From: Kineosporia succinea
Lineage (GTDB): Bacteria; Actinomycetota; Actinomycetes; Actinomycetales; Kineosporiaceae
Reading direction: 5' to 3'
NCBI RefSeq assembly: GCF_030811555.1
Contig: NZ_JAUSQZ010000001.1
Coordinates: 6,259,241 to 6,323,240, forward strand
DNA: 64,000 nucleotides
In this document: in pieces, positions 10,918 to 28,616 of the stretch
Position numbering within the stretch: position 1 is the stretch's first letter
Layout: each line of letters begins with the position of its first letter
Made by a program: the position numbers and the translations under genes
The notes under the pieces: generated by a model
The model's input: only the letters and a program-made list of their open reading frames with translations
What the model was told of the DNA's origin: nothing
Databases searched by the model: none

Positions 10918-10919
10918 CC

Positions 10920-11114: not shown

Positions 11115-11130
11115 CACCACTCCACGGAAC

Positions 11131-12504: not shown

Positions 12505-12878
12505 ACGATTCACGTCCTCCTCGTTTCGGGACACCGGCACCGCCGGACGCGGCGCCGCCCCCGAGGCGCGCAGCACCGCCGCGCCGGTCGAAAACTCACT
12601 CGTGCCAGGGTGAAACAGCCCGGAAACACGCGGGTCTGCGTCTGGGGCCCACCATAAGTCATGATGCGTGTTCTTGACGATAGTCGAGAAAGCGAATTAA
12701 CCAGAGGCGCCGGTCCCGGTGAATCGGCGACCGGTCGTGAGTGCGGCTCGTAACGGCCGCGTTTCCGTCGTGAAAACAAGCGCCGGGCGGGCGCTTTGTC
12801 CCTTGTCGGCGGCGTCCGGCCCTGCCTATGGTCCGATTGGTCAGACCAAGTCGCCGGTCGCACGGAGGGAGTCAGCAG
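12505..12878. other. 374-bp divergent intergenic region
   Basis: No gene was recognised between the CoA ligase and the GntR regulator. The part near 12650-12710 is noticeably AT-richer than its surroundings (for example TTGACGATAG and GCGAATTAACC) and on the minus strand contains TATGGT at 12655-12650, a plausible -10 for the ligase operon. The right part holds the GntR promoter and operator described separately. Confidence 0.5.
12803..12849 (+). promoter_or_regulatory. Promoter and perfect FadR-type operator of the GntR regulator
   Basis: TTGTCG (12803-12808) and TATGGT (12827-12832) are 18 bp apart. Just downstream, TTGGTCAGACCAA (12837-12849) is a perfect inverted repeat about one central base and matches the TnGTnnnACnA operator of the FadR subfamily of GntR regulators. 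It would cover the transcription start, so the regulator probably represses itself and the amidase operon it leads. Confidence 0.7.
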
Positions 12879-13628
12879 GTGAACGCGCGCCGCACCGTTG
12901 CCCCCGAGACGCTGCGCCTGCCGCCCCGCGCCCCCGAGACCCAGCTCGGCAGTGTCAGTTCCGAGATCTCCGCCCATCTGGAGAAACTGATCGCCGTCGG
13001 GGACCTGGCGCCCGGCGACCGGCTGCCGTCCGAACGCGACCTGGCCGCCGCGCTGGGCGTCTCCCGGGCGTCCCTGCGTGAGGCCATGCACGAGCTCGAG
13101 GCCAAGCACCTGCTCGAACGCCGGCCCGGCCGGGGCACCACCGTGCTGCCCGCACCCGAACGCGTGCAGGCCCTGTACTCGCAGCTGTCCGACGCCGAGC
13201 ACCAGCTGCGCGACGTGGCCGAGCTGCGCGAGACGATCGAACCGCGCCTGGCCGAGCTGGCGGCGCTGCGGGCCACGCCCGCCCACCTCGCCGAGCTCGA
13301 GAACCTCCTGCGGGAGCCCCTGTCCGGCCCCCGCGAGTCGCTGCGGCTGGACCTGGAGTTCCACCTCCTGCTGGCCACCGCGTCCGGCAACCCCCTGATG
13401 TCCGCTGTCAACACCGTCGTCTGCTCCTGGACCTCCGCCACCCGGCTGGCCTCGCACTCCACCCGCTACGCCCGCGAGGTCTCCCTCCTGGGCCACCGCG
13501 CGATCCTCGAGGCGGTGCGGGCCGGCGACGGCCCGGCCGCCCGGGCCGCGATGACCCGCCACCTGGCCGACGTCGCGGCCCTGACCCGCGACGACATTCA
13601 CCGAAGCGAGAACCATGACCACCCTTGA
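12879..13628 (+). CDS. GntR-family regulator, FadR/FCD subfamily
   Basis: A 249-residue regulator. The N-terminal winged helix has LIAVGDLAPGDRLPSERDLA and LGVSRASLREAMHELEAK, and the C-terminal FCD domain carries ELRETIEPRLAELAALR, LEFHLLLATASGN and the metal-site His residues near LLGHRAILEAVRAG. GTG at 12879 has GGAGGG 8 nt upstream. It overlaps the FmdA/AmdA gene start by 14 bp, so it is the first gene of the amide operon and probably controls it. FCD domains often bind small organic acids through a metal. Confidence 0.9.
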   Translation: MNARRTVAPETLRLPPRAPETQLGSVSSEISAHLEKLIAVGDLAPGDRLPSERDLAAALGVSRASLREAMHELEAKHLLERRPGRGTTVLPAPERVQALYSQLSDAEHQLRDVAELRETIEPRLAELAALRATPAHLAELENLLREPLSGPRESLRLDLEFHLLLATASGNPLMSAVNTVVCSWTSATRLASHSTRYAREVSLLGHRAILEAVRAGDGPAARAAMTRHLADVAALTRDDIHRSENHDHP

Positions 13629-14739
13629 CCGGCCCGGCTCCGGATACGCCGCACTGCAGCCCCTCTCGAGCTCGCCGGGCGCCTACCTGCCGGCCACCCC
13701 GTCCACCACGCAGTGGGGCCGCCTGCCCAGCGACGCCGACGCGCCCGTGCTCACCGTCGACCCGGGCACCACCGTCGTCGTCGACACGGTCAGCCACGAG
13801 GGCATCCTCGAGGACCAGGGCCGTGACCCGGTCGCCTTCTTCGCCGGTCACGGGGTGGGGCGCGATCGCGTGCTCGACGACGCCGTGCTGATCGCGGCCG
13901 AGGGCGAGCACGACCGCACCGGCGGCCCGCACGTGGTCACCGGCCCGATCGAGATCCGCGGCGCGCGGCCCGGTGACCTGGTGGCCGTGCGCATCGGTGA
14001 CCTGGTGCCGCGCACCGACTACGGCGTCATCTCCAGCCGTCACGGCCGCGGTCTGCTGCCCGAGCGATTTCCCCACGGCAACAGCGTCTTCTGCCTGGTC
14101 GAGAACCTGACCCGGGGGATCGCCCAGGCCCGTGCCACCCTGCCGCTGACCGCCGGGGCCGGATCACGGCCCGTGCGGTTCCCGATCGCCCCGTTCCTGG
14201 GTGTCATGGGCGTGGCCACCCCCGGCTCCCGGCTCAGCAGCACCCCTCCCGGCCTGCACGGCGGCAACATCGACGTGCGGCTGCTCGTCACCGGCACCAC
14301 GCTGTTCCTGCCGGTGCAGGTCGCCGGCGCCGGGTTCTACGTCGGTGACCCGCATTTCGCGCAGGGCAACGGTGAGGTCGCGCTGACCGCGCTGGAGGCC
14401 CCGCTGCGGGCGACGCTCACGCTCGGGCTGGTGCCGAAGGAGGTGGCGCAGGAACGGTTCTCCGGGGTCCGGGGGCCGTTTGCGCTCACCGACGAGTTCC
14501 TGGTGCCGACCGGTCTGGACGAAGACCTCGACGTCGCGGTGAGCAAGTGCGGCGAGAATGCCGTGGCGATGCTGGGCTCGGTGTTCGGGATGGCCCCGGA
14601 GCTGGCCTACGCCTACCTGTCGGCGGCCACCGACTTCGAGATCTCCCAGGTCGTCGACCTGGTCAAGGGCTCGCACGCCCGGATCCGGCTCTCCGACTTC
14701 CCGTTCAGCACCATCAGCGCTCAGGAGTTCGTACGGTGA
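13615..14739 (+). CDS. Acetamidase/formamidase-family protein
   Basis: A 374-residue FmdA/AmdA-family amidohydrolase: TVVVDTVSHEGILEDQG, HVVTGPIEIRGARPGDLVAV, CLVENLTRGIA, RFPIAPFLGVMGVATPG, STPPGLHGGNIDVR and LFLPVQVAGAGFYVGDPHFAQG, the last with the conserved Asp-Pro-His. The family hydrolyses short amides (formamide, acetamide) to ammonium and acid. Length and motifs are complete. It overlaps the regulator before it and shares a GTGA overlap with the AtzH-amidase gene after it, so all are one operon. The last residues could place it as processing a formamide or carbamate produced by its neighbours. Confidence 0.9.
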   Translation: MTTLDRPGSGYAALQPLSSSPGAYLPATPSTTQWGRLPSDADAPVLTVDPGTTVVVDTVSHEGILEDQGRDPVAFFAGHGVGRDRVLDDAVLIAAEGEHDRTGGPHVVTGPIEIRGARPGDLVAVRIGDLVPRTDYGVISSRHGRGLLPERFPHGNSVFCLVENLTRGIAQARATLPLTAGAGSRPVRFPIAPFLGVMGVATPGSRLSSTPPGLHGGNIDVRLLVTGTTLFLPVQVAGAGFYVGDPHFAQGNGEVALTALEAPLRATLTLGLVPKEVAQERFSGVRGPFALTDEFLVPTGLDEDLDVAVSKCGENAVAMLGSVFGMAPELAYAYLSAATDFEISQVVDLVKGSHARIRLSDFPFSTISAQEFVR

Positions 14740-16322
14740 AGCTCTTCTCGGGAATCGGCGGAACAGCCCCGGTGCAGGCCTCCGGCCCGGTTCCGCCCGG
14801 CCTGCTCGAGGCCTTCGACGCCTACGAAACCGCGCTGCTGACCAACGATGTCGCGGCCCTGGACGCGTTGTTCGCGCCCGGCCCGCACACCGTGCGCGGT
14901 GACGGCACCCATCTGCTCGTCGGGCACGACGCGATCGCCGGGTTCCGGTCCGGCCGCACGGTGATCCCGACGCGCCGGGTCACCGGGGTGCTGGTGCGGC
15001 CCGTCGGCGACGACGCCGCGCTGCTGATGGCCTCCACCCGAGCCCCGGCCGGTGGCGCCACCGGCCTGCAGACACAGATGTGGCAACGCGTCGAGGGCGT
15101 CTGGAAGGTCGGTGCCGCGCACGTCAGCCTGCCCGCCAGACCCGCCCCGGCCGTGGACGAGTCGATCTGGCGGGTGGTCGGCACGCCCATGGTGGACGCG
15201 TCGGGCCGGGGCCCGCTCGACGGCGCCACGGTCGCGGTCAAGGACCTCTTCGCGGTCGCCGGGCAGAAGACCGGCGCCGGCAACCCGGCCTGGCTGGCAG
15301 GGCAGGAACCGAACGTCGCGTCCGCCCCGGCGGTCGGTGCCCTGCTGGGGGCCGGGGCCGTGATCACCGGGATCGCCCGCACCGACGAGTTCGCCTACAG
15401 CCTCGCCGGGCAGAACGCCCACTACGGCACCCCACCGAATCCGGCCGTGCCGCAGGGCATCAGCGGTGGTTCCACCAGCGGCCCGGCCTCGGCGGTGGCG
15501 CTGCGCCAGGTCGACATCGGCCTGGGCACCGACACCGCCGGCTCGATCCGGGTCCCCGCGTCGTACCAGGGACTCGTCGGTCTGCGCACCACGCACGGCG
15601 CCGTCAGCGCCGAGGGTGTGCTGCCGCTGGCGCCCTCCTTCGACACCGTGGGCTGGCTGACCCGCGACGCCGCCACCGCGCTGCGCGTGGCCGAGGTCCT
15701 GCTCCCGGCCGCGACCGCCACGAGCGCCACGCGAACGCTGGCGCTGCCCACGGTCGACGCCCTGGCCACCCCGGACGTGGCCCGTGCGCTGCAGACCGAG
15801 CGTGAGCGCCTCGTCGCCGAGGGACTCCTGCCCCCGCTCGAGCAGGCCGACCTGACCACGGAGGTGCTGGAGGAGTGGTTCACCGCGTTCCGCACCCTCC
15901 AGGCCCACGAGGCGTGGGCGGCCAACGGCGACTGGATCACCGCCCACCCGGGCACCCTGGGTGCCGACGTGGCCGCCCGCTTCACCGCCGCGTCCACCAT
16001 CACCGACGACCAGGCCGCCGAGGCCCGCGCGGTGGTGGGCCTGGCCCGCACCGTGCTGGCCGACCTGCTGGAGGGTGCCGTGCTCGTGCTGCCCAGCAGT
16101 GCCGGGGGAGCCCCCGCCCGGGACGCCGGACCCGACCAGGTCGAGGCCGAACGGGCCGGCACCCTGCGCATGACCTGCCTGGCCGGGCTCGCCGGAGCGC
16201 CCGCGCTGTCGCTGCCCCGGCTGCGCACGGCCGACGGCCGCCCGGCTGGCCTGTGCCTGCTCGGGGCACCCGGCAGCGACCGTGACCTGTTGCAGCTGGC
16301 CATCTCTGGAGGACTGGCGTGA
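14736..16322 (+). CDS. AtzH-like domain fused to amidase-signature hydrolase
   Basis: A 528-residue fusion. Residues about 25-140 resemble AtzH (SnoaL-like fold: AFDAYETALLTNDVAALDAL, HTVRGDGTHLLVGHDAI, TQMWQRVEGVWKVGAAHVSL). Residues about 150-525 are an amidase-signature enzyme with Lys169 (VAVKDLF), the GGSTSGPAS loop (Ser246/248) and Ser270 (GTDTAGSIRVPAS) forming the Ser-cisSer-Lys triad. AtzH and its amidase relatives act on carboxyurea and biuret-type compounds in cyanuric acid degradation. The fusion suggests a substrate with adjacent amide or carboxy-urea groups. Its GTG overlaps the FmdA stop; the next gene also overlaps. Confidence 0.88.
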   Translation: MKLFSGIGGTAPVQASGPVPPGLLEAFDAYETALLTNDVAALDALFAPGPHTVRGDGTHLLVGHDAIAGFRSGRTVIPTRRVTGVLVRPVGDDAALLMASTRAPAGGATGLQTQMWQRVEGVWKVGAAHVSLPARPAPAVDESIWRVVGTPMVDASGRGPLDGATVAVKDLFAVAGQKTGAGNPAWLAGQEPNVASAPAVGALLGAGAVITGIARTDEFAYSLAGQNAHYGTPPNPAVPQGISGGSTSGPASAVALRQVDIGLGTDTAGSIRVPASYQGLVGLRTTHGAVSAEGVLPLAPSFDTVGWLTRDAATALRVAEVLLPAATATSATRTLALPTVDALATPDVARALQTERERLVAEGLLPPLEQADLTTEVLEEWFTAFRTLQAHEAWAANGDWITAHPGTLGADVAARFTAASTITDDQAAEARAVVGLARTVLADLLEGAVLVLPSSAGGAPARDAGPDQVEAERAGTLRMTCLAGLAGAPALSLPRLRTADGRPAGLCLLGAPGSDRDLLQLAISGGLA

Positions 16323-17077
16323 CCACCGTACCGCGCAACCGATGGACCTTCGAGGACGGCCGGGTGGATCTGCGCCGCGACACCCCGCCACCGCGTCCGC
16401 TCGAGGTGGCCGCCCGGCCGGCCCCGCTGACCGCCGACCTGACCCGCAGCGCCCTCGTCGTCGTCGACATGCAGAACGACTTCTGCACCCCCGGCGGCTG
16501 GCTCGACGGTATCGGCGTCGACGTCAGCCCGCTGGCCCAGGCGGTCACCGCCCTGCAGCAGCTGGTTCCGGCCGCCCGCGCCGCGGGAATGCCCGTGGTC
16601 TGGGTGAACTGGGGCAACCGGCTCGACCGGGCCAACCTCCCGCCCGGGGTCGCGCACGTCTACGACCCGCAGGGTCTGGGCGTCGGCATCGGATCCGAGA
16701 TGCCCAACGGCTCGCGGGTTCTCACCCGCGACAGCTGGGGCGCGGCCCTCGTCGACGGGCTGGTCCGGGAACCCGGTGACATCGACGTGGACAAGTACCG
16801 GATGAGCGGTTTCTGGGACACGCCGCTGGAGTCGATCCTGCGGAACCTGCGCGTGGACACGCTCTTCCTGGCCGGCGTCAACTCCGACCAGTGCGTGTAC
16901 GCCACCCTGATCGACGCCGCCTGCATCGGATACGACGTGGTGCTGGTCGACGGCGCCAGCGCCACCACCTCCCCGGCGTTCTGCCACGACGCCACGCTCT
17001 ACAACACCCGCCAGTGCTTCGGTTTCTCCGTCGAATCCGCAGATCTGGTATCCGCTCTCGCCAAGGAGACCCGATGA
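16319..17077 (+). CDS. Isochorismatase-fold cysteine hydrolase (biuret/ureidoacrylate-hydrolase-like)
   Basis: A 252-residue isochorismatase-family amidohydrolase with all three catalytic residues visible: Asp in ALVVVDMQNDFCTPGGW, Lys in DVDKYRMSGF and Cys in FLAGVNSDQCVYAT. The N-terminal 40 residues form an extension seen in biuret, ureidoacrylate and N-carbamoyl hydrolases. Such enzymes attack ureido or amide bonds to release ammonium and carbon dioxide. Coupled by GTGA overlap to the AtzH-amidase gene and by ATGA overlap to the cupin gene. The exact substrate cannot be read from sequence. Confidence 0.9.
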   Translation: MTTVPRNRWTFEDGRVDLRRDTPPPRPLEVAARPAPLTADLTRSALVVVDMQNDFCTPGGWLDGIGVDVSPLAQAVTALQQLVPAARAAGMPVVWVNWGNRLDRANLPPGVAHVYDPQGLGVGIGSEMPNGSRVLTRDSWGAALVDGLVREPGDIDVDKYRMSGFWDTPLESILRNLRVDTLFLAGVNSDQCVYATLIDAACIGYDVVLVDGASATTSPAFCHDATLYNTRQCFGFSVESADLVSALAKETR

Positions 17078-17520
17078 CCACCCCTGCCCCGATCCTGCGT
17101 CACCTCGAGGACGTCGTCCCCCAGCTGATCTCCCCGCAGGACACGGTCAAGCTGGCGCTCCTGGCCGGCCCGGCGGACGGGTCGCCCACGAGCGTGTTCT
17201 TCGAGGTCTGGGAGCCGGGCGGCGCGCAGCCGGTCAACGCCCACGAGGAGTCCACCGAGATCTTCGTGGTGCTGTCCGGCACCGGCCGGGCCCACAGCGA
17301 CGAGCACGTGGTCGATCTCAAGGCCGGTGACGTGCTGGTGCTGCACCCGGAGTCGAACCACCGCATCTTCAACACCTCCGAGACCGACCGCCTCTACGCC
17401 GTGACCATCATGTGCAACGACGACGGCGCCATGCCGGGCGGTTTCGCCGAGCTGGTCGCCGGGGGCACGCCCACGGTGTGGGACGGTACCGACCACGCCG
17501 TGCTGGCGGGCGGCGCGTGA
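17074..17520 (+). CDS. Cupin-domain protein of the amide operon
   Basis: A 148-residue single cupin: NAHEESTEIFVVLSGTGRAH carries His/Glu/Glu of metal motif 1 and KAGDVLVLHPESNHRIFN the second-motif His. The HxxE spacing is somewhat different from the common HxHxxxxE form because the first His is replaced by Asn (VNAHEES), so the metal site may be reduced. It is translationally coupled on both sides (ATGA upstream, GTGA downstream), which argues for a real pathway role such as isomerisation or substrate binding; the reaction is unknown. Confidence 0.8.
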   Translation: MTTPAPILRHLEDVVPQLISPQDTVKLALLAGPADGSPTSVFFEVWEPGGAQPVNAHEESTEIFVVLSGTGRAHSDEHVVDLKAGDVLVLHPESNHRIFNTSETDRLYAVTIMCNDDGAMPGGFAELVAGGTPTVWDGTDHAVLAGGA

Positions 17521-18284
17521 CCCAGCACCCCCAGTACCTCACCCGGCTGACCACCAACGGCATCGACGCGCTGGACAAGTCCCGCGCGGTCGTGGTCCAG
17601 CCGATCGGGGCGATCGAGCAGCACGGCCCCCACCTGCCCGTGATGACGGACGCGTTCGTCGCCGAGCAGGTGGCGGCCCGCGCCGCCACCCCCGACGTGT
17701 GGCTGCTGCCCCCGCTGAGCTACGGCAAGTCCAACGAGCACGTGGGCTGGGCCGGCACGATCAGCCTCGACGCCACCACGCTCTACGCCGTGTGCCGCGA
17801 CCTCGGCCGCTCGCTGGCCGCCTCCGGCTTCTCCCGCCTGGCGTTCGTCAACGGTCACGGCGGCAACCCCTCGCTGCTCGACGTGGCGGCCCGGGACATC
17901 CGCGTCGAGACCGGCCTCATGGTCTTCCCGGTCACCACCGGCCGCCTCGGCACCCCGGCCGGCCTGGATCTGCCGGACGCCGAGTTCTCCATCCACGGCG
18001 GCCACGTCGAGACCTCGATCATGCTGCACCTGGCGCCCGACACGGTGCACATGGACCTCGCCGAGCCCGGCGGCGCGCACCTGCCCGACCTCTTCCCGGG
18101 CGAGCTCAGCCTGGAGGACGCCCTGCCCACCGCCTGGGTCACCGACGACCTGACCACGAACGGCGTCATCGGCGACCCGACGTCGGCCACGGCCGAGACC
18201 GGCGCCGCGATCGTCGGGCACTGGACCACGCGCCTGAGCGCCGCCTACGAGCAGATGGCCACGTTCGCCTTCCGCACCGCCTGA
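17517..18284 (+). CDS. Creatininase-family metallohydrolase
   Basis: A 255-residue creatinine amidohydrolase-fold protein. Metal ligands appear in QPIGAIEQHGPHLPVMTD (Glu, His, Asp) and FVNGHGGNPSLLD (His), and the closing Glu is in SIHGGHVETSIML. The family opens cyclic amides or cleaves formamides (creatinine, 3-dehydro-scyllo-inosose relatives, FAPy deformylase, mycofactocin peptide). GTG overlaps the cupin stop. As the last gene of an amide/urea operon, ring opening of a cyclic ureide or removal of a formyl group is the most natural inference. Confidence 0.88.
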   Translation: MTQHPQYLTRLTTNGIDALDKSRAVVVQPIGAIEQHGPHLPVMTDAFVAEQVAARAATPDVWLLPPLSYGKSNEHVGWAGTISLDATTLYAVCRDLGRSLAASGFSRLAFVNGHGGNPSLLDVAARDIRVETGLMVFPVTTGRLGTPAGLDLPDAEFSIHGGHVETSIMLHLAPDTVHMDLAEPGGAHLPDLFPGELSLEDALPTAWVTDDLTTNGVIGDPTSATAETGAAIVGHWTTRLSAAYEQMATFAFRTA

Positions 18285-18361
18285 GCCCCGAGCCCCGCGA
18301 GCCCAGGCCGGGCAGCCCGACGACCAGGATCGTCAGCACGCCGCGTCGTGCTCCGACCACG

Positions 18362-18398
18362 CCGGAGGGAGAGGTCGGATTCTGACCTCTCCCTCCGG
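18362..18398. terminator. Bidirectional hairpin between convergent operons
   Basis: Perfect 15-bp stem (18362-18376 with 18384-18398) and a 7-nt loop, lying between the creatininase and phosphotriesterase-family genes, which converge. There is no clear T-run on either side, as is common in high-GC actinomycetes. Confidence 0.7.
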
Positions 18399-18403
18399 GG
18401 CTC

Positions 18404-19441
18404 TCAACCGGCCAGGGCCCGGCGCGGGTTGGTCACCCGCAGCGTGGTGATGTCGGCGTCGGTCAGGCCCAGGGCGAGCAACTGAGGGACGACGGTGTTG
18501 CCGATGTGGGTCAGTCCCCAGCCGCCGTGACGGGTGAACTGCGGCTTCATCGCGATGTCGTGACTGATCAGGGTCTGCTCCAGGAACCCGGCCGCGGCCA
18601 GCTCGAGGAGCATGTCGATGCGGTGGTGGTCGAACGCCCGGCGCGGGTAGGTGCCGTCGGGGCGGCGGGCGCTGACGGACCACTGCTCCATGCCGAACGT
18701 GTCCAGCTCCACCCACGCACCGCGCCGCGCGACCTCGAGCGCGAACCCGGACTCCGGGCGCTCGTCGCAGTGGCTCACGATCACCTTGCCCGGATCCACC
18801 CCGGCGTCCAGCAGCAGGTCGACGGCTTCCAGGCCCGCCATCTCGTCGGGAAAGATGGTGCGGTGCACGTTGATCGCGACGCCGGTCTCGAGCTGGGCCA
18901 GGGCGGCGCCGCGCAGCACCTTGCGCTCGGCGTCGGTGACCGGGTTGCCACTGCCGATCTCGCCGATGATGCCCGCCCGGATCCCGGTCGTGCCGACCCC
19001 GACGCGCAGCTCGTCGAGCAGCACGTCGCGAATCATCTCGGGCGAGGCGTACCGCACGTAGGGGGAGTGGGCCGGCTCCACGTACTCGCCGCAGCCCATC
19101 ACGATGTTCACGCCGCTCATCCGCGACAGCGCCGCCAGGGCCACGTGGTCGCGCCCGAAACCGGGGATGCCCAGATCGACCACGGTGCCCCCGCCCAGAG
19201 CGAGCAGCTCCTCCAGCGCCACCTCGAAGTCCAGCTGCTGCATGGCCGAACGGTACGAGAACGGCTGCGTCTGGACCTTTCCCCGCATCGATACCGAGTA
19301 CGGCCGCGTGTACTCGGCCAGGTCCTCGTCGCGGGAAGGCACGATCCACTGCGCGTTCGCGTTCGCGATCAGGTGCTCGTGCGGGAGGACGACCCCCAGA
19401 CCGGACGCGGGAACCTCACCGAGGACGGTGGTCACGTTCAC
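18404..19441 (-). CDS. Phosphotriesterase-family metallohydrolase
   Basis: A 345-residue TIM-barrel hydrolase of the phosphotriesterase-homology family. The first metal motif is VVLPHEHLIAN (HxH), later ligands are the His of VAINVHRTIF, the His of VIVSHCDERPES and the Asp of LISHDIAMKPQF. The usual carboxylated-lysine position (around IRAGIIGEIGSG) is occupied by Glu, as in the lactonase/PHP-like subset that bridges the metals with Glu. Family members are lactonases, amidases or esterases; native substrate here unknown. The ATG overlaps the MTHFR-like stop, so it is the last gene of the amidohydrolase / MTHFR-like / PTE operon. Confidence 0.88.
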   Translation of the reverse strand: MNVTTVLGEVPASGLGVVLPHEHLIANANAQWIVPSRDEDLAEYTRPYSVSMRGKVQTQPFSYRSAMQQLDFEVALEELLALGGGTVVDLGIPGFGRDHVALAALSRMSGVNIVMGCGEYVEPAHSPYVRYASPEMIRDVLLDELRVGVGTTGIRAGIIGEIGSGNPVTDAERKVLRGAALAQLETGVAINVHRTIFPDEMAGLEAVDLLLDAGVDPGKVIVSHCDERPESGFALEVARRGAWVELDTFGMEQWSVSARRPDGTYPRRAFDHHRIDMLLELAAAGFLEQTLISHDIAMKPQFTRHGGWGLTHIGNTVVPQLLALGLTDADITTLRVTNPRRALAG

Positions 19442-20574
19442 GCCGGGACCCCCGCCAGCTTGCGGACCTCGGCGATCAGGTCACGCTGCTCGGTCGAGGC
19501 GGCCAGCGCGTTCTGCCGCCCGGTGACCGGCGCGATCAGGCAGCCGGCCACCCCCTCGGCCGCGTTCAGCTCCGCGACGAGCTCGGCCGCGATCAGGATG
19601 CCCTCCTGCTGCGGGTCCTTCGCCTGCTTCAGCCGCTTCAGCAGGGCCTCCGGGATCGAGAAACCCCGCAGCCCGGCGTTGACCGCCCGGGCCACCGGCT
19701 CGTTCGGCAGCACCGCGACGCCACCCAGCAGCCAGAAGGGCTTCTCGTCGGCCCGCAGCGCGTTCACCCCGGCCAGGAAGCTCTTCCAGCGCTCGGCGTC
19801 GAAGATGTGCTGGCTGATCACGAAGTCGGCGCCGAGCCGGACCTTGCGCAGCACGTGCCAGGGCCGCTCGTCGTAGGGCGGGGCGAACGGTGCGGCGGTG
19901 GCGCCGAGCAGGTACTCCGGCCTGACCTCGACCTCGCGGCCGTTGTCGTACCGGCCCTGTGAGCGCAGCTTGTCGGCCATCGCCAGCAGCCGGGGCGAGT
20001 CCAGGTCGAACACCGGCTTGGCGTCACGGCTGTCGCCCACGCGCACGTGGTTCCCGGTGACACACAGCACGTTGCGCACGCCGAGGCTGGAGACGCCCAG
20101 CAGGTCTCCCTGCAGGGCCATGCGGTTGCGGTCGCGGCAGCCGAAGGTCGTCATCACCTCGATACCGGCCAGGGCCAGGTGCGCCGAGACCGCGACATTG
20201 CCCATGTGCACGTTGGCGCCGGAATGGTCGGTCACCGAGACCACGTCGGCCACCGCGGCGATGTCCCGGGCCGCGGCCACCGTGCCGGAGGCGTCGGCCG
20301 AGTCGGCGCCGTTGATCTCCGCGATCACGGTGAACCGGCCGGACATCAGCGCGGAGTGCAGCCCGCTGAGCGGGGTTCCGGGCACCAGGGGAGCGGGCAT
20401 CGAGGCCAGCAGGTCACGTTCGCTGACGATCACCCGCTCACGCACGGGCTCGGTGAGCAGCGCGCAGATCATCGAGGAGTCGATCTCGCAGCGCAGGTCC
20501 TCGGTCACGCCGCCGCACGGCCCCACGGTCATGTTCTTGGGGCAGACGGCCACGGGCAGGGTGGTGTCGGTCAT
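19438..20574 (-). CDS. Methylenetetrahydrofolate reductase-like protein with N-terminal Cys-rich module
   Basis: A 378-residue protein. Residues 1-40 have a Cys-rich module (CPKNMTVGPCGG, further Cys29 and Cys37) like the MTHFR_C accessory domain; residues about 75-370 are an MTHFR-type FAD barrel (FTVIAEINGADSADASGTV, VVSVTDHSGANVHMGNVAVS, GVRNVLCVTGNHVRVGDS, GADFVISQHIFDAERW). It lacks the length and order of housekeeping MetF. In this operon it may reduce or accept a one-carbon unit released from the substrate onto tetrahydrofolate. SD GGAG-like near the start, 39 bp after the ATZ/TRZ gene. Confidence 0.85.
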   Translation of the reverse strand: MTDTTLPVAVCPKNMTVGPCGGVTEDLRCEIDSSMICALLTEPVRERVIVSERDLLASMPAPLVPGTPLSGLHSALMSGRFTVIAEINGADSADASGTVAAARDIAAVADVVSVTDHSGANVHMGNVAVSAHLALAGIEVMTTFGCRDRNRMALQGDLLGVSSLGVRNVLCVTGNHVRVGDSRDAKPVFDLDSPRLLAMADKLRSQGRYDNGREVEVRPEYLLGATAAPFAPPYDERPWHVLRKVRLGADFVISQHIFDAERWKSFLAGVNALRADEKPFWLLGGVAVLPNEPVARAVNAGLRGFSIPEALLKRLKQAKDPQQEGILIAAELVAELNAAEGVAGCLIAPVTGRQNALAASTEQRDLIAEVRKLAGVPA

Positions 20575-20613
20575 GGAAGAGTCTCTCCGGGTGCTGGTTC
20601 GGAAGAAGGGACG

Positions 20614-21939
20614 TCAGGCCAGGTCGTGGACGCGCCGACGGCACTCGTCGGCCAGGGGATGGGTGGAGCGGGACCCGTGCGCGACGGCCCGGCCGCCCAC
20701 GTACACCGAGCGCAGGTTGCGCAGGCTCATCGACAGCACGTAGGAGGCGAGCGGGTCGCGCACCGGCCCGACGTCGGGGTCGCGCGGGTCGACGACGACG
20801 AAGTCGGCGTACTTGCCCACGTCGAGACTGCCCACCCGGTCGCCGATCCCGAGCACGTCGGCCGCCTGCTGGGTGGCCATGGCGAACACGTCGGCGGGGG
20901 TGAGGGACGTCGGGTCCTGCCGGTGGGCGCGGGTGCCGAACAACCCGAAACGCATGGCCTGCCAGGGGTCCGACAGGTCGGTGCAGGCCTGGTCGTCGAT
21001 GCCGATCCCGACCCGCACCCCGGCCGCCCTCAGGCCGGTGACGTCCGCGAAACCCGACCCGAGGCGTCCGTTCGCCACCGGCTGCCACGAGACCGCCGAG
21101 CCTGAATCGGCCACCGCGGCCACGATCTCGGGGGTGGTCTGCACGAAGTGCCCGAAGATCATCGAGGGGCCGAGCGCCCCGGCGTCGGCGTACCAGGCGA
21201 ACTTCGAGCGCTGCAGCTCCACGTGCTCGGGGGTCTCCAGGAAGTGCGCCTGATTGAGGACGTGGTGGTCGCCCATCGCACGCACCTCCAGTTCGGCGGT
21301 GGCCGGGTCGTCGGCCCACTGCACCGCGCCGTACACCGCGGCGTCGAGGGCGAGGGACCGGTCCTGCGCCCTCAGGTGCTCGACGGTGGCCGTCCAGTTC
21401 TCGAGGGACTCCCCGGCGGAACCGCTCTCGGACTCCAGCTGGATCGCCGTGACGGTGCGCAGCCCGCTGGCCACCTTGGCGTCGATCTGGGCGGTGCCGA
21501 ACTCGAACGGCCGCAGCGGCGGGAGCTCCTGACGGCGTCCGTCGACCATCGCGGCCCAGGGCCGGCGGGGGTCGTTGAAGTCGAACAGCGTGGTGACGCC
21601 GTTGGCCAGCACGTCGAGCGCGCCGTGCAGGGTGTGCCAGTAGATCTGCTCGGGTGTGCAGCCGGCCGTCGGCGCGTACATCGCACTGGCCCAGCCGTAC
21701 AGGTACTCGCTCGCGCCCAGGCCCCGTGAGGCGCTGGTGAACAGGTGGCTGTGCGTCGAGACGAAACCGGGTGCCACGAAGGCACCTGCGGCGTCGATGA
21801 TCTCCGCGCCGTCGAGCACCGGGGCCGTGCCGGCGCCCAGCGCCGTGATCCGGCCCTGGCTCACGTGCATCCAGCCGTGAGGCACCAGCGTGGTGCTGTC
21901 GCGGATCAGGTGGGCGTTGACGATCAGAACGTCGCGCAT
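20614..21939 (-). CDS. ATZ/TRZ-type amidohydrolase (N-heterocycle deaminase or chlorohydrolase-like)
   Basis: A 441-residue amidohydrolase of the cytosine deaminase/ATZ/TRZ group. The metal motif is FVAPGFVSTHSHLFTSA (HxH), followed by NQAHFLETPEH (third His with the catalytic Glu), IFGHFVQTTPE and the metal Asp of VRVGIGIDDQACTD; the C-terminal beta-sandwich ends DVGKYADFVVVDPRD. Members hydrolyse amino, chloro or methoxy groups from s-triazines, purines and pyrimidines, or guanidino compounds. First gene of its operon and divergent from a GntR regulator with which it shares an operator. Confidence 0.88.
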   Translation of the reverse strand: MRDVLIVNAHLIRDSTTLVPHGWMHVSQGRITALGAGTAPVLDGAEIIDAAGAFVAPGFVSTHSHLFTSASRGLGASEYLYGWASAMYAPTAGCTPEQIYWHTLHGALDVLANGVTTLFDFNDPRRPWAAMVDGRRQELPPLRPFEFGTAQIDAKVASGLRTVTAIQLESESGSAGESLENWTATVEHLRAQDRSLALDAAVYGAVQWADDPATAELEVRAMGDHHVLNQAHFLETPEHVELQRSKFAWYADAGALGPSMIFGHFVQTTPEIVAAVADSGSAVSWQPVANGRLGSGFADVTGLRAAGVRVGIGIDDQACTDLSDPWQAMRFGLFGTRAHRQDPTSLTPADVFAMATQQAADVLGIGDRVGSLDVGKYADFVVVDPRDPDVGPVRDPLASYVLSMSLRNLRSVYVGGRAVAHGSRSTHPLADECRRRVHDLA

Positions 21940-21976
21940 CGATTCCCTTCCTTCCGGTGGGCGATTCGCTTCTCCG

Positions 21977-22147
21977 TCAAGGTAAGACCAGTTTGTAACT
22001 GAGAGATTTCGGCCAGAGCTGTCGGCGTTAAACGACTTTCCGCGATCCTGCCTGGTTGCCGGGGAGATGCCCGATATGGCCGAACCAGTGCTTTACCTAC
22101 GGGACACATCGTGCGAGTCATTGCGTTACTTGCCGGTCTTACCTTGA
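21977..22147. promoter_or_regulatory. Divergent control region with paired inverted GntR operators
   Basis: TCAAGGTAAGACC at 21977-21989 recurs as its exact reverse complement GGTCTTACCTTGA at 22135-22147. Each copy contains GGTnnnACC, the GTnnnAC core of HutC-type GntR sites. One copy lies next to the ATZ/TRZ start, the other next to the GntR start, so one regulator could control both operons, possibly by looping over 158 bp. A separate CAGTT-TGT-AACTG dyad follows the first copy. Confidence 0.7.
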
Positions 22148-22179
22148 TGCCACCGCCGGAAGCGACAGAAGGACAGGAC

Positions 22180-22875
22180 ATGACCGAGGTGACGAGCAGG
22201 CTGCGGGCCGTGTGGGCCGACGCCGCGCGTTCCCGCATGCCGCTGCCGCCGGAGAAGGACCTGGCCGTCCAGCTGGGGGTCAGCCGTCCCACGCTGCGAG
22301 AGGCCCTGGCCCGCATGGAGGCGCAGGGCCTGATCCGGCGCGACGCGCACCGGGGCACGTTCCCCAATGTCGTCGCGCTCGACCTGGGCCTGCGCATCGA
22401 CGAGAGCTTCGAGTTCTCGGCCGGTATCTCCGAGGCCGGGTTCGAGCCGTCGATCCAGCTCATCAGTTCCGGCTGGATCCGGATGGACGCGGAACTGGCC
22501 GGGCGGCACTCGCTTCCGGAGGGCACGGTCGCGTTCGAGATGACCAAACGCTGGTGCGCCGGCGGTACCCCGGTGATGTACGCGATCGACCACATCCCGA
22601 TGACCCGCGAGTCGGTGGCCCTGCCCGACGCCCGCACCTCGATCTTCCAGCTGGTGCGCGACCTGCGCGGCGAGACGGTCGAGTGGGAGTCGGCGCGGCT
22701 GCGAGCCCGCTCGGCCACCGCGCAGGACGGCGACATGCTGCTGGCCGAGGCCGGGAAACCCCTGATCCAGCTGGACATCACCGGCGTCTCGCGCAGCGGC
22801 GAGGTGCTGTACGTGGCGCAAGAGGTGCACCGCGACGACGTCATCCCGTACCACCTGGTGAGGAGCTCGCGATGA
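22180..22875 (+). CDS. GntR-family regulator, HutC/UTRA subfamily
   Basis: A 231-residue regulator with an N-terminal winged helix (RMPLPPEKDLAVQLGVSRPT, LREALARMEAQGLIRRDAHR) and a C-terminal UTRA ligand domain (FEPSIQLISSGWIRMDAEL, AFEMTKRWCAGGTPVMYAID, VLYVAQEVHRDDVIPYHLV). The ATG at 22180 follows AAGGACAGGA; upstream in-frame ATGs would extend the protein across the operator. UTRA domains bind substrates or intermediates of the operon they control. ATGA overlap with the PnrA-like gene suggests they work together. Confidence 0.88.
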   Translation: MTEVTSRLRAVWADAARSRMPLPPEKDLAVQLGVSRPTLREALARMEAQGLIRRDAHRGTFPNVVALDLGLRIDESFEFSAGISEAGFEPSIQLISSGWIRMDAELAGRHSLPEGTVAFEMTKRWCAGGTPVMYAIDHIPMTRESVALPDARTSIFQLVRDLRGETVEWESARLRARSATAQDGDMLLAEAGKPLIQLDITGVSRSGEVLYVAQEVHRDDVIPYHLVRSSR

Positions 22876-23630
22876 GGGTCGGAGTGCTCCTGCCCCCGCC
22901 CGAGGTGGCCGGCGGCTTCGCCGACGGGGCCCGCACCGCCGTCCACCACGTCCTCGAACGTGGTCTGGATCTTGACGTTCGGCCCGGATACACGGGAGAG
23001 CCGGATGCGAGCTGGGACGCGGTGCTGTGCCACGGCGTGCAGTACCGGGAATGGCTCACCGAGCACCGCGGCGCGCTGCGGGCCGTCCTGACCGACAGGC
23101 CCACCGACGTCACCGGTCTCGAGGGCATCACCCTGGTCGACTGGGGATGGCACGAAGCCGCCTACGAGGCGGGACGGTTCGCCGCCCGGCAGGCCGCGGG
23201 AGCCCCGGTCGGTCTCGTCGCCGGACCGGCCGTGCTCACGCAGCGCCGGTTCGGGCAGGCCTTCACCGAGGGCGCCTACGAGAACGGCCACACCGCGGCG
23301 ATCAGCGTGGTGCACGTGAGAGCCTTCGACGACGTCGGGGGTGGGCGCCGGGCGGGTGAGGTCCTGGCCGGCGAGCTGAACTGCGCGGTGGTCGCCCATG
23401 CGGCCGACTCGGCGGGCGAGGCGGCCTGCACGGCCGCGCGTGACCTCGGCGCCCGCACCATCGGTTTCATCGAGCCGCTGAACCACCACGCGGCCACGGT
23501 GCACAGCGACATCGGCGGAGTTCTCGGGCATCTGCTCGAGGCTCTGACGACCGGGGCAGCGCTGCCCGAGATCTACGAATGCGGAATCGGCACCGGGCAT
23601 CTCGCCCTGGTGACCGAGGCGACCCGGTAG
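22872..23630 (+). CDS. Cytosolic PnrA/BMP-like ligand-binding protein
   Basis: A 252-residue protein matching the BMP/PnrA substrate-binding fold: DWGWHEAAYEAGRFAARQA, GLVAGPAVLTQRRFGQAFTEGA, VVHVRAFDDVGGGRRAGE, and EIYECGIGTGHLALV. The family normally consists of lipoproteins that bind nucleosides for ABC importers, but here the first residues (MRVGVLLPPPEVAGG) contain no signal peptide or lipobox. It therefore probably stays in the cytosol. Its overlap with the GntR gene suggests a ligand-buffering, sensing or enzymatic role rather than transport. Confidence 0.75.
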   Translation: MRVGVLLPPPEVAGGFADGARTAVHHVLERGLDLDVRPGYTGEPDASWDAVLCHGVQYREWLTEHRGALRAVLTDRPTDVTGLEGITLVDWGWHEAAYEAGRFAARQAAGAPVGLVAGPAVLTQRRFGQAFTEGAYENGHTAAISVVHVRAFDDVGGGRRAGEVLAGELNCAVVAHAADSAGEAACTAARDLGARTIGFIEPLNHHAATVHSDIGGVLGHLLEALTTGAALPEIYECGIGTGHLALVTEATR

Positions 23631-23688
23631 TCCACACCTCACGACCAGCACGTCGTCCGGGGTCGATCCGAACCTGAGGAGAAGTACC

Positions 23689-24444
23689 TTGGCTGTTGCC
23701 ATTCCTGAAACCGCGGCCGGGCTGCGGTTCGTCAGCACGGGCATGGAGTACCCGGACGGCACCGTGGCCCTCGAAGGGGTGGACCTGGACGTCCGTCCCG
23801 GGCAGTTCGTCTCCGTCGTCGGCCCCTCGGGCTGCGGCAAGAGCACCCTGCTGCGCCTGGCGTCCCGGCTCGAGCACCACACCTCCGGCGAGGTCGCGGT
23901 CGATCCGCACGCGCTGGCCTACGTGTTCCAGGACGCGACGCTCCTGCCCTGGCGCAGCGTGAAGAAGAACGTGGCCCTGTTCTGCGAGCTGCGCGGCGAC
24001 GGCAAGGCCGACATCGCCCGCCGGGTGCAGGAGGCCATCGACCTGGTCGGGCTCACCGGGTTCGAGAACCACTACCCGCACCAGCTTTCCGGCGGCATGC
24101 GGATGCGGGCCAGCGTGGCCCGCTGCCTGACCGTCGACCCGGGCGTCTTCCTGTTCGACGAGCCGTTCGGGGCGCTCGACGAGATCAGCCGGCAGAAGCT
24201 CAACGACGACCTGCAGACCCTGTTCCACGCGCAGAAGTTCGCGGCGCTGTTCGTCACCCACTCGATCGCCGAGGCCGTGTACCTGTCCACCGAGGTGGTC
24301 GTGATGTCGGGCCGGCCCGGCCGGATCCTCGACCGGGTGCCGGTGCCGTTCGCCTACCCCCGTGACCCGCAGATCCGCTACTCCGAGGAGTTCGCGCACC
24401 TGTGTGCGCGCGTCTCCCAATCGCTCGCCGGCAAGGAGCACTGA
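23689..24444 (+). CDS. ABC transporter ATP-binding protein, NitT/TauT type
   Basis: A 251-residue ATPase: Walker A GPSGCGKSTLL (about residue 45), Q-loop YVFQDATLLPWRSV, signature QLSGGMRMRASVARCL, Walker B VFLFDEPFGALDE and the H-loop VTHSIAEAVY. The Q-loop with LLPWR is typical of nitrate/sulfonate/taurine/hydroxymethylpyrimidine importers. TTG start with GAGGAG 7 nt upstream. Signature motif LSGGM rather than LSGGQ is normal in this subgroup. With the permease and lipoprotein downstream it makes a complete importer for the compound handled by the neighbouring hydrolases. Confidence 0.92.
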   Translation: MAVAIPETAAGLRFVSTGMEYPDGTVALEGVDLDVRPGQFVSVVGPSGCGKSTLLRLASRLEHHTSGEVAVDPHALAYVFQDATLLPWRSVKKNVALFCELRGDGKADIARRVQEAIDLVGLTGFENHYPHQLSGGMRMRASVARCLTVDPGVFLFDEPFGALDEISRQKLNDDLQTLFHAQKFAALFVTHSIAEAVYLSTEVVVMSGRPGRILDRVPVPFAYPRDPQIRYSEEFAHLCARVSQSLAGKEH

Positions 24445-24447
24445 ATC

Positions 24448-25302
24448 GTGAGCACCGACACCGTGAAGGCCGTCTCCGTCGCGCCTCCCGCCGTCAAGAG
24501 CGCCAGGGCCCGCCGGAAGAACAGCTACCTGGCCGACTTCGGCCTGCCGCTGGCCGTGCTGGCACTCATCATCGGCTTCGCCTACTTCGTCACCTACGTC
24601 GTGCTCTCGGAAGACCGGCGGTTCCTGCTGCCGCCGCTGCACGAGGTGATCAGGGTGTCGTTCCTGGACGCCGACAACCGCGCCCAGATCCTCGAGGCGC
24701 TGTGGCGCACCACCGTGATCGCCATGGTCGGCCTGTTCTTCTCGGTCGCGCTGGGCATGGTCTTCGCCGTGGTGATGGCCTCGGCGCGCTGGCTCGAACG
24801 GTCGCTCTTCCCGTATGCTGTTGTTCTGCAGGCCATCCCGATCCTCGCCCTGGTGCCGCTGATGGGCTTCTGGTTCGGCTTCGGCTTCACCGCCCGGGTC
24901 ATCGTGTGCGTGATCTGCTCGATCTTCCCGATCATCGCCAACACCCTGTTCGGCCTGCAGTCGGTCGAGCCCGGCCATCGTGACCTGTTCCGGCTGCGCG
25001 GGGCCAAGCCCGGCGTCGTGCTCTCGAAACTGCTCATCCCGGCGGCCCTTCCGAGCGTGTTCACCGGCCTGCGGATCTCCGCCGGCGCCTCGGTGATCGG
25101 CGCGATCGTCGGCGACACCTACTTCCGCCAGGGCGAACCCGGCATCGGCATCCTGATCGACCTGTTCCGCTCCCGGCTGCAGTCGGAGCAGCTGTTCGGC
25201 GCGATCATCGCCTCGTCCCTGCTCGGCATCGTGGTCTTCGCCTTCTTCACCTGGCTGAGCCGGCGCCTGGTCGGCCACTGGCACGCGAGTGGGCGCCTGT
25301 AG
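24448..25302 (+). CDS. ABC transporter permease, NitT/TauT type
   Basis: A 284-residue inner-membrane permease with about six membrane spans: residues 30-55, 80-105, 115-140 and onward through SIFPIIANTLFG and the terminal IIASSLLGIVVFAFFTWLS. The EAA-type coupling loop is around LFRLRGAKPGVVLSKLLIPAALP. It starts with GTG three bases after the ATPase stop and has AAGGAG as SD. The basic cytosolic N-terminus is about 30 residues long. Confidence 0.92.
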   Translation: MSTDTVKAVSVAPPAVKSARARRKNSYLADFGLPLAVLALIIGFAYFVTYVVLSEDRRFLLPPLHEVIRVSFLDADNRAQILEALWRTTVIAMVGLFFSVALGMVFAVVMASARWLERSLFPYAVVLQAIPILALVPLMGFWFGFGFTARVIVCVICSIFPIIANTLFGLQSVEPGHRDLFRLRGAKPGVVLSKLLIPAALPSVFTGLRISAGASVIGAIVGDTYFRQGEPGIGILIDLFRSRLQSEQLFGAIIASSLLGIVVFAFFTWLSRRLVGHWHASGRL

Positions 25303-25399
25303 GCGTTCGCCGCCCACGTCGTCCTCCAGCACCTAGTTCTTCTGGCTCCCCCTGCCCGGGGAGCCAGAACCCCCACCCCACCGATCGACGGGATCCAGC

Positions 25400-26590
25400 A
25401 TGCCCAGAATCCGTAACCGCGCCCTCACCGGTGTGGCCATGACCTCCGTCCTGGTCTCCCTCGCCGCCTGCGGCGGGGGCAGCTCCGACGCCGGCTCCGA
25501 CGGTCAGGGCGTCCAGGTCGCGGCCTCCGCGGCCGCCGACTCGGCCAGCTACCTGGCCGACGCGTGCCCCGCCACCGTGGTCATGCAGGCCGACTGGAAC
25601 CCCGAGTCCGAGCACGGCGCGCTGTACCAGATGCTCGGCGGCGACGTGAAGATCGACACCGACAAGAAGCGCGTCACCGGCACCCTCGTCGACACCGAGG
25701 GCAACGACACCGGCGTGAAGCTCGAGATCCGCGCCGGCGGGCCCGCGATCGGCTACGACAGCGTGACCAACCAGATGTACACCGACCCGGACATCATGAT
25801 GGGCTACGTCAGCACCGACGACGCGATGATCGCGGCGGGCACCAAGCAGCCGGTCACCGCCGTGGTCGCGCCCACCGAGATCAGCCCGACCTCGATCATG
25901 TGGGACCCGGAGACCTATCCCGACGTGAAGACGATCGCGGACGTGAAGAAGGCCGGGATCAAGGTCCGCTACACCAACGGCCTGGCCTACATGGACTACC
26001 TGACGTCGACCGGCAAGCTGTCCGCCGACCAGGTCGACGGCTCCTACGACGGCTCGCCGGGCAACTTCGTCGCCGACGCCGGCAAGGCCGCGCAGCAGGG
26101 CTACGCCAGCGCCGAGCCGTACCTGTACAAGAACGAGATCAGCCAGTGGGGCAAGGAACTCGCCTACGACCTGGTGGCGAACAGTGGCTACCAGATCTAC
26201 GTGCAGGCGCTGTCGATGCCGAGCGAGAAGGTCGCGGAGAACTCGGCCTGCCTGAAGAAGCTGGTGCCGATCATCCAGGCCGCGCAGATCGACTTCCTCA
26301 ACGACCCGGCCGACGCGAACGCGCTGATCGTGAAGCTGGTCGAGGAGTACGACACCGGCTGGCAGTACTCGGCCGGGGTGGCCGACTACTCGGTGAAGAC
26401 GCAGAAGGACCTGGGCATCGTCTCCAACGGCCCGGACTCCACGCTCGGCAACATGGACATGGACCGGGTGCAGAAGCTGATCGACGAGATGCAGCCGATC
26501 CTGTCGGGCAAGGGCGTGGACGTGCCCGCCGACCTGAAGGCCGAGGACATCGCGACGAACGAGTTCGTGGACATGAGCATCGGGCTGTAA
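25400..26590 (+). CDS. ABC transporter substrate-binding lipoprotein (NMT1/ThiY-like)
   Basis: A 396-residue lipoprotein: basic N-region, hydrophobic core and lipobox SLAACGGG (Cys about residue 24). The mature protein has the NMT1/SsuA-like bilobal fold (MQADWNPESEHGALYQMLGG, PAIGYDSVTNQMY, AYMDYLTSTGKLSADQVDG, EPYLYKNEISQWGKELAYD). The opening ADWNPESEHG resembles pyrimidine-precursor binders (ThiY/Thi5), which grip a flat heterocycle, in keeping with the ATZ/TRZ and MTHFR-like genes next door. Last gene of the importer operon, followed by a strong terminator. Confidence 0.9.
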   Translation: MPRIRNRALTGVAMTSVLVSLAACGGGSSDAGSDGQGVQVAASAAADSASYLADACPATVVMQADWNPESEHGALYQMLGGDVKIDTDKKRVTGTLVDTEGNDTGVKLEIRAGGPAIGYDSVTNQMYTDPDIMMGYVSTDDAMIAAGTKQPVTAVVAPTEISPTSIMWDPETYPDVKTIADVKKAGIKVRYTNGLAYMDYLTSTGKLSADQVDGSYDGSPGNFVADAGKAAQQGYASAEPYLYKNEISQWGKELAYDLVANSGYQIYVQALSMPSEKVAENSACLKKLVPIIQAAQIDFLNDPADANALIVKLVEEYDTGWQYSAGVADYSVKTQKDLGIVSNGPDSTLGNMDMDRVQKLIDEMQPILSGKGVDVPADLKAEDIATNEFVDMSIGL

Positions 26591-26597
26591 CGCCCGG

Positions 26598-26640
26598 GGC
26601 CGCGGCCGTCACCGGATCCCGGTGACGGCCGCGGCCTTTG
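26598..26640 (+). terminator. Strong terminator after the importer operon
   Basis: Perfect 18-bp stem (26598-26615 with 26619-26636), 3-nt loop and a following TTTG, 7 nt after the stop of the lipoprotein gene. Confidence 0.85.
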
Positions 26641-28489: not shown

Positions 28490-28616
28490 GGGAGGTCCTC
28501 TCGAGACGGCGTGCACCGACGACGTTAGGCGTGCGGCGCACGGTCTGGGAGGCCCTGCCAGAACCAGGAACGACAGACACTGCCGCGGCCGCCGGTACGG
28601 TCGCTGAACTGGGGCC

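Follow-up and report, generated by a model that had tools for sequence, protein, structure and literature searches.

The 64-kb stretch of the Kineosporia succinea chromosome analyzed here (the window; positions 6259241-6323240 of an 8.07-Mb chromosome) carries 14 genes that we read, with a probability of about 0.7, as one modular system for the catabolism of a nitrogen heterocycle. The gene set is conserved, its modules also occur independently, the genes at its front end are swapped between loci, and the active site of its flavoprotein, which resembles methylenetetrahydrofolate reductase (MTHFR), has changed. To judge from these residues, the MTHFR-like protein probably no longer works on folate. 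Catabolic clusters for N-heterocycles are known, and the use of an MTHFR fold in one is possibly new.

The gene set

The initial annotation had listed 14 contiguous genes and named their families, and ORF reading, Pfam and NCBIfam confirmed all of them as real open frames spanning window positions 12879-26590:

12879..13628 (alternative ATG start at 12828), plus strand: GntR1, a FadR-type regulator (Pfam GntR and FCD)
13615..14739, plus strand: FmdA/AmdA-family amide hydrolase, outside the formamidase equivalog (Pfam FmdA_AmdA)
14736..16322, plus strand: AtzH-like domain fused to an amidase-signature hydrolase (Pfam AtzH-like and Amidase)
16319..17077, plus strand: isochorismatase-fold amide hydrolase, RutB/BiuH-like (Pfam Isochorismatase)
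17074..17520, plus strand: cupin (Pfam Cupin_2)
17517..18284, plus strand: creatininase-family hydrolase (Pfam Creatininase)
18362..18398, no strand: 18-bp inverted repeat (94% complementary, 1-nt spacer) between convergent operons, a likely bidirectional terminator
18404..19441, minus strand: phosphotriesterase (PTE)/PTER-like metallohydrolase, proposed ring-opening cyclic amidase (Pfam PTE)
19438..20574, minus strand: MTHFR-like flavoprotein with an N-terminal four-Cys DUF5981 stretch (Pfam MTHFR and DUF5981)
20614..21939, minus strand: ATZ/TRZ amidohydrolase, proposed deaminase (Pfam Amidohydro_1)
22111..22875, plus strand: GntR2, a HutC-type regulator with GntR and UTRA domains (Pfam)
22872..23630, plus strand: PnrA/BMP-like protein with no visible signal peptide, proposed cytosolic sensor (Pfam Bmp, 33.7 bits)
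23689..24444, plus strand: NitT/TauT-type ABC ATPase (Pfam, NCBIfam)
24448..25302, plus strand: ABC permease (family scan, locus comparison)
25400..26590, plus strand: lipoprotein-like substrate-binding protein (SBP), without a Pfam match (compared with other loci)

From GntR1 through the creatininase-family gene, successive frames overlap by 14, 4, 4, 4 and 4 bases, and the PTE and MTHFR-like genes overlap by 4 bases. The closest named relative at the locus is Kineosporia babensis, whose MTHFR-like protein is 89% identical.

Recurrence in other genera

A search for conserved synteny of the MTHFR-like, PTE-like, ATZ/TRZ and AtzH-amidase genes, suggested in the initial annotation, shows the set to recur, reshuffled, in four other genera. 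A contig scan with the MTHFR-like protein, which finds close relatives only, returned six other loci: two from Nocardia and one each from K. babensis, Dactylosporangium, Cellulomonas and Rhodococcus. Among 149 genomes of the order the family occurs in our genome and K. babensis, among 394 genomes of the class in our genome only (six further genomes pass E 1e-40, none of them above 148 bits), and further genome samples gave 2/251, 1/200 and 1/150.

That the genes belong together, as the initial annotation had held, is seen in what accompanies the MTHFR-like gene. PTE adjoins it in all seven genomes and a PnrA-like gene is present at every locus, while the AtzH-amidase is found at six of the seven, partial or frame-broken in two; the K. 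babensis ortholog lies on another contig than the MTHFR locus. An ATZ ortholog occurs once per genome in 7/7 (E 1e-60; eight database entries, two of which are one genome by identical coordinates). FmdA is likewise encoded in 7/7, away from the locus in Nocardia. Isochorismatase and cupin orthologs stand at the loci of six genomes and a creatininase-family gene at those of three, and the full back-module core (defined below) is present in 6/7 genomes with the MTHFR half. The cupin is 53-61% identical across other genera, and GntR1 shows 82% identity in K. babensis and 31-33% at the Dactylosporangium and Cellulomonas loci. Gene order and orientation around MTHFR-PTE differ by genus between Nocardia, Dactylosporangium, Rhodococcus and Cellulomonas, and retention of the set through repeated reshuffling therefore argues for a joint function. 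In Cellulomonas, contig ends interrupt the locus; the genome retains FmdA and a partial AtzH-amidase, and the cupin was sought on the two locus contigs only. In Rhodococcus JCM 9791 (L008 10001-11118 and neighbors), the MTHFR-like, amidase, FmdA and GntR2 genes are frame-broken, by decay or assembly error.

The initial annotation had left open one or two linked systems. What we find looks like one system of two modules, but the halves are split in K. babensis, where one contig carries GntR2, PnrA, the ABC importer, ATZ, MTHFR and PTE, and GntR1, FmdA, AtzH-amidase, isochorismatase, cupin, creatininase and an importer of their own lie well inside another. Separation of the halves with unrelated partners had been named as evidence against a link, and the FmdA half does occur with no MTHFR/PTE nearby in 19 sampled genomes; nevertheless, six of the seven MTHFR genomes hold the core.

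The altered pocket of the MTHFR-like protein

The MTHFR-like protein has the TIM-barrel MTHFR fold, and its residues N175, L346 and I84 align with Asp120, His273 and Ser26 of Escherichia coli MetF. In all seven family members Asp120 is replaced by Asn, His273 by Leu and Ser26 by Ile or Val, leaving no Ser-His-Glu triad. Glu28 and Gln183 (E. coli numbering) are conserved in all family rows covering these positions. Asp120 and His273 are kept in 9/9 outgroup and 8/8 cleanly read phylum homologs (17/17; L011, with internal stops, was left out of the alignment), as well as in the canonical MetF encoded elsewhere in our own genome and in E. coli MetF; one outgroup row with D120, La6, has Asn at position 183. 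The N120 group forms a single clade with a support of 100/99 (6 of 17 rows, the Rhodococcus pieces being left out of the tree). When the phylum was searched with the family profile, 74/296 genomes matched at E 1e-50, our own included, which scored 732.2 bits while the next best genome scored 258.9 bits. Nine loci from the 73 other genomes were inspected, and all nine have Asp120 and His273, including L105, which was read across two stops and excluded from the count above.

According to the available text of PMC11094777, Asp120 of MTHFR bonds pterin N3 and the exocyclic NH2, Gln183 bonds N1 and N8-H, and the D120N variant of the E. coli enzyme retains 0.3% of kcat; the available text of PMC9900621 describes Asp120 as invariant and essential. 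Since a substitution with so small a residual kcat is present in 7/7 members, and Ser26 and His273 are lost as well, the folate-bound one-carbon (C1) handling that the initial annotation had proposed is unlikely. It is the weakest part of that reading because no methyltransferase family was found by Pfam among the 14 genes (E 0.001), a separate canonical MetF exists and the pterin-binding Asp is gone.

The genome also encodes a third, remote MTHFR-like protein (L052, chromosome 689095-689526), which opens with a GPCGG motif.

A back module with apparently exchangeable front ends

The isochorismatase fold, cupin and AtzH-amidase, often with FmdA and creatininase, make up a back module that also occurs apart from the MTHFR-like gene. 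Isochorismatase orthologs (E 1e-60) occur in 20/394 class genomes, our own included, and every match outside our genome was taken as a back-module locus (n = 19, 15 of them from two genera). These loci were scanned over 4.4-20 kb, the six MTHFR-type loci over 18-40 kb and the window over 64 kb; L099 (4.4 kb) and L094 stop at contig ends. Each of the 19 has partners from the back module: AtzH-amidase is present at 18, cupin at 17, FmdA at 11 and creatininase at 10, and none of the 19 loci has MTHFR, PTE or PnrA nearby; for MTHFR, no match at E 1e-40 was found in any of these 19 genomes. Instead, a luciferase-like flavin enzyme (LLM) stands at 15/19 and a beta-lactamase-fold hydrolase (MBL) at 17/19, and three of the four loci that lack an LLM carry a cytosine-deaminase-like gene, the fourth being the 4.4-kb contig. 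MTHFR-type loci have an LLM in 0/7 and an MBL in 1/7. The front end, a flavoenzyme plus a metallohydrolase, thus looks exchangeable.

On plasmids of proteobacteria the back module is joined to still other fronts. On a Pantoea plasmid (L081 4374-14731) it stands with a BMP-type importer, ATZ and an NADH:flavin oxidoreductase, and on a Roseomonas plasmid (L083 8174-15659) with a different ABC importer, an amidase and HpxZ. In L085, L086, L091, L092, L093 and L094, from one genus with mostly large genomes, the back module lies amid genes that resemble, by eye and by their motifs, his/trp biosynthesis genes.

Enzyme families and catalytic residues

By their sequences the enzymes are members of the superfamilies named earlier, yet not of known equivalogs. 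Among the catabolic enzymes, the amidase alone clears an NCBIfam cut-off among the matches listed, and it passes only PRK08310 ('amidase', no substrate named; best 25 of 27 NCBIfam matches), reaching 135.2 bits to AtzE against a cut-off of 425.75. The protein first annotated as an FmdA-type formamidase does belong to the FmdA_AmdA family, but lies outside the formamidase equivalog (76.8 bits to FormamaseFmdA, cut-off 500). The isochorismatase-fold protein scores below RutB (143.4 bits against 377.95) and BiuH (123.4 against 370), the creatininase-family protein below creatininase (110.6 against 235) and MftE (153.8 against 172), and no deaminase model among the NCBIfam matches listed has its cut-off reached. 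The Pfam and NCBIfam matches listed for the 14 proteins include no AtzD, dihydropyrimidine dehydrogenase or dihydropyrimidinase family, and neither two LLM queries against the window nor the Pfam scans of the 14 proteins found a luciferase-like (RutA-type) flavin enzyme.

Catalytic residues were compared in alignments (seven rows for the PTE-like protein) in which as many as two rows may have a gap at a given site. In the aligned rows, D50, K159 and C192 of the isochorismatase-fold protein are unchanged, as are H21, H23, E161, H193, H224 and D295 of the PTE-like protein, H63, H65, H232, E235, H264 and D315 of the ATZ/TRZ protein and the catalytic residues of the amidase, which makes the hydrolytic nitrogen removal first proposed for this cluster plausible. 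The best PDB sequence match of the isochorismatase-fold protein is RutB. The PTE-like protein has the binuclear metal ligands of its superfamily (HxH, Glu, His, His, Asp), and its best PDB sequence matches are 9efa and 3k2g (PTER-type); the PTER-type proteins closest to it are presumably amide hydrolases. PTER is tied to N-acetyltaurine, for which no supporting paper was found in the open-licence PMC literature.

Importer and PnrA-like protein

The permease is 92% identical in K. babensis, 60% at L088 and 52% at L089, both back-module loci with a cytosine-deaminase-like gene, and 28-40% at other MTHFR-type loci; for the SBP the values are 93% in K. babensis, 47% at L088 and 23% in Nocardia. 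For both proteins L088 is the nearest locus after K. babensis. The SBP counterparts encoded in Nocardia and Rhodococcus belong to the NMT1/THI5 type (PF09084), and a joint profile of the window SBP and its counterparts matches 4nmy (an unnamed SBP), followed by THI5 and an FAMP-binding protein, with 3ix1 among the PDB matches. The predicted structure of the SBP has a mean pLDDT of 34.5. An imported cyclic N-heterocycle, as in the initial annotation, is plausible as a substrate; the evidence from the window importer is weak. No signal peptide is visible in the PnrA/BMP-fold protein, which may act as a sensor, a chaperone or an enzyme.

Proposed pathway

The steps proposed here rest on family, active-site residues and gene partnership, and an aminopyrimidine or pyrimidine-fused ring is the favored substrate. 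The NitT/TauT-type ABC importer would take up the ring compound, which may be sensed by the PnrA-like protein and GntR2, and by GntR1. The ATZ/TRZ enzyme would then deaminate the ring at an exocyclic position, so that an N3-H/C=O edge is left, and the MTHFR-like protein would carry out flavin redox chemistry on the deaminated ring instead of on folate: Asn at position 120 would fit an edge of N-H and C=O in place of the N3-H and NH2 of pterin, with Gln183 and Glu28 remaining. Ring reduction seems the likeliest direction, comparable to dihydropyrimidine dehydrogenase, after which the PTE-like metallohydrolase would open the reduced ring as dihydropyrimidinase does. The isochorismatase-fold, AtzH-amidase, FmdA-family and creatininase-family proteins and the cupin could finally break down the ureido/acyl-amide chain, releasing ammonium, CO2 and small acids. 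In the sister clusters, the luciferase-like flavin enzyme and the beta-lactamase-fold hydrolase would replace the redox and ring-opening steps.

This full mechanism, in which an imported pyrimidine-type ring would be deaminated, redox-processed, opened and stripped of nitrogen, is offered tentatively, as something short of probable. Its boldest form is more doubtful still: that an MTHFR left folate metabolism, the Asp-to-Asn change and the loss of the Ser and His partners of the catalytic Glu having retuned its pterin pocket to a deaminated, oxo pyrimidine-type ring, and that, paired with a PTE-type hydrolase, it provides a new reductive route of ring opening, which can stand before the hydrolytic back module in exchange for an oxidative route of the luciferase type and beta-lactamase fold.

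Several observations weigh against our interpretation. The substrate, the order of reactions and the direction of the redox step are inferred, and the roles of the PnrA-like protein and the cupin are guesses. The window SBP by itself has no PDB sequence match at E 1 and is only 23-27% like the NMT1-type counterparts behind the joint-profile matches, so the link of the window importer to pyrimidine binders is weak. The isochorismatase was not found in the whole Cellulomonas draft at E 1e-10, although the same query matched 20/394 genomes; such an empty result by itself is no evidence of absence, yet the back module may be incomplete in some members. Because of this and the missing PDB match, our confidence in both the single system and the full mechanism is slightly lower. 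The DUF5981 stretch and the D120 homologs link the MTHFR-like protein to MetVF-type folate enzymes, the tree program issued a flag because the N120 group joins long MetF branches through a long stem of its own, and the third MTHFR-like protein of the genome keeps Asp120 but lacks Glu28, Gln183 and His273. The argument from Asn to an oxo edge is a chemical one, and an Asn enzyme could still use folate poorly. As for the front ends, 14 of the 15 LLM loci stem from two genera of one family, the swap is blurred by Nocardia jiangxiensis (L004), where MTHFR/PTE stand beside both an MBL and a cytosine-deaminase-like gene, and the swap is one of alternative partners, not of equal reactions.

Alternative explanations

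Removal of a methyl or formyl group of the heterocycle onto tetrahydrofolate, with the MTHFR-like protein interconverting methyl- and methylenetetrahydrofolate, would agree with the retained Glu28 and Gln183, and the plasmid homologs at 34-41% identity are catabolic MetF proteins, with corrinoid methyltransferase genes in three of the four neighborhoods read. The fourth, on a Paracoccaceae plasmid (L019), has folD-metV-metF in a neighborhood that also encodes a protein like isoxanthopterin deaminase and an NMT1-like importer. We nevertheless consider this unlikely, since the residue called invariant and essential in the available text of PMC9900621 is Asn in 7/7, Glu28 has lost its Ser/His partners, the 14 genes include no methyltransferase family by the Pfam search above, and a canonical MetF is encoded elsewhere. 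Equally unlikely is that the MTHFR-like protein oxidizes or reduces a methyl or formyl group borne by a nitrogen of a ring-opened purine or pteridine (one made from 7-methylguanine, say) while the group is still attached to the diaminopyrimidine, FmdA or the creatininase-family protein then acting as deformylase. PnrA-like proteins bind nucleosides and the creatininase family contains a formamidopyrimidine deformylase, both of which count in its favor, and MTHFR chemistry itself moves a hydride at a carbon that sits on N5 of a ring fused to a pyrimidine. The residue that makes the bonds to N1 and N8-H (PMC11094777), Gln183, is retained. However, no curated cut-off ties any of the 14 genes to purines among the matches listed, and the joint SBP profile matches thiamin-pyrimidine rather than purine binders, weakly so for the window SBP.

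That two unrelated operons merely lie side by side, the FmdA operon for one amide and the ATZ/MTHFR/PTE operon for another compound, is comparably unlikely. The separate K. babensis loci, each with an importer, the 19 sampled genomes with a back module and no MTHFR/PTE nearby, the different GntR types of the two operons and the isochorismatase not found in the Cellulomonas draft all speak for it, but the genes are physical neighbors, in another order, in Nocardia (where FmdA lies elsewhere), Dactylosporangium, Rhodococcus and, in part, Cellulomonas. Salvage or detoxification, with the enzymes clearing damaged cofactors (thiamin pyrimidine or oxidized folate, for instance) rather than supporting growth, would agree with the SBP counterparts in other genera that match thiamin-pyrimidine binders; we find it quite improbable, as five amide- or ring-hydrolyzing families in a single regulated set suggest complete breakdown.

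The Paracoccaceae locus (CP031587.1 77286-102065, 10485-18731) has a metF with Asp120 and a TadA-like gene nearby, and may itself serve folate-linked heterocycle breakdown.

Regulatory stretches and flanking genes

The regulatory stretch of one operon contains no inverted repeat and that of the other a single 7-bp pair, so we see no shared operator linking the operons; the sole promoter-like site found lies within the terminator region. Beside the cluster, at 8829-12576, genes for RidA-like, PaaX-like, FAA hydrolase and PaaK-like CoA ligase proteins likely form a separate aromatic/acyl-CoA system. At 28070-28702, a cupin that scores 162.4 bits with the NCBIfam model of (R)-mandelonitrile lyase, above the cut-off of 140, adjoins a carboxymuconolactone decarboxylase-like gene.

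Significance and comparison with known systems

If the proposed pathway is right, it would provide a natural MTHFR-fold enzyme with a non-folate substrate, together with a residue-level prediction of its change, and a plug-in architecture for N-heterocycle breakdown in soil actinobacteria, and would give a meaning to the unexplained back module of 19/394 class genomes and of proteobacterial plasmids. The gene names 'methylenetetrahydrofolate reductase' and 'formamidase' are probably wrong here. No publication with this gene set was found among the titles and abstract starts of the open-licence PMC literature, which does not imply its absence from print.

The Rut, reductive pyrimidine, cyanuric acid and creatinine pathways were rejected as exact matches on family and equivalog grounds. 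The window shares with Rut (RutA-RutG) a RutB-like isochorismatase-fold hydrolase, but lacks an LLM, and the hydrolase stays below the RutB cut-off. RutA is a luciferase-like flavin enzyme, and the sister clusters likewise pair an LLM with an isochorismatase-fold hydrolase; to our knowledge, Rut has no MTHFR, PTE, ATZ, AtzH-amidase, FmdA or creatininase. The reductive pyrimidine pathway, consisting of dihydropyrimidine dehydrogenase, dihydropyrimidinase and beta-ureidopropionase, would agree with the proposed order of flavin redox, cyclic amide hydrolysis and ureide hydrolysis, but its families are absent from the Pfam and NCBIfam matches listed for the 14 proteins. With the cyanuric acid, biuret and oxalurate pathways (AtzDGEHF, BiuH, HpxYZ), the window has in common an AtzH-like domain with an amidase and a BiuH-like isochorismatase, and differs in its redox enzyme, in an amidase below the AtzE cut-off and in having no AtzD among the matches listed. 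Riboflavin/lumichrome catabolism was rejected as well, the enzymes described in the available text of PMC12746152 being different.

The Pantoea and Roseomonas plasmid operons share creatininase, cupin and isochorismatase (52-55%), along with ATZ and a BMP-type importer or an amidase and HpxZ; they have no MTHFR/PTE in the stretches read, and Pantoea has the NADH:flavin oxidoreductase. Catabolic MetF/MetVF proteins that work with corrinoid methyltransferases have the MTHFR fold and the DUF5981 motif in common with the window protein, at 34-41% identity on plasmids; unlike them, it stands in a set without a methyltransferase, has lost Asp120, His273 and Ser/Thr26 and has gained a C-terminal PVTGR segment.

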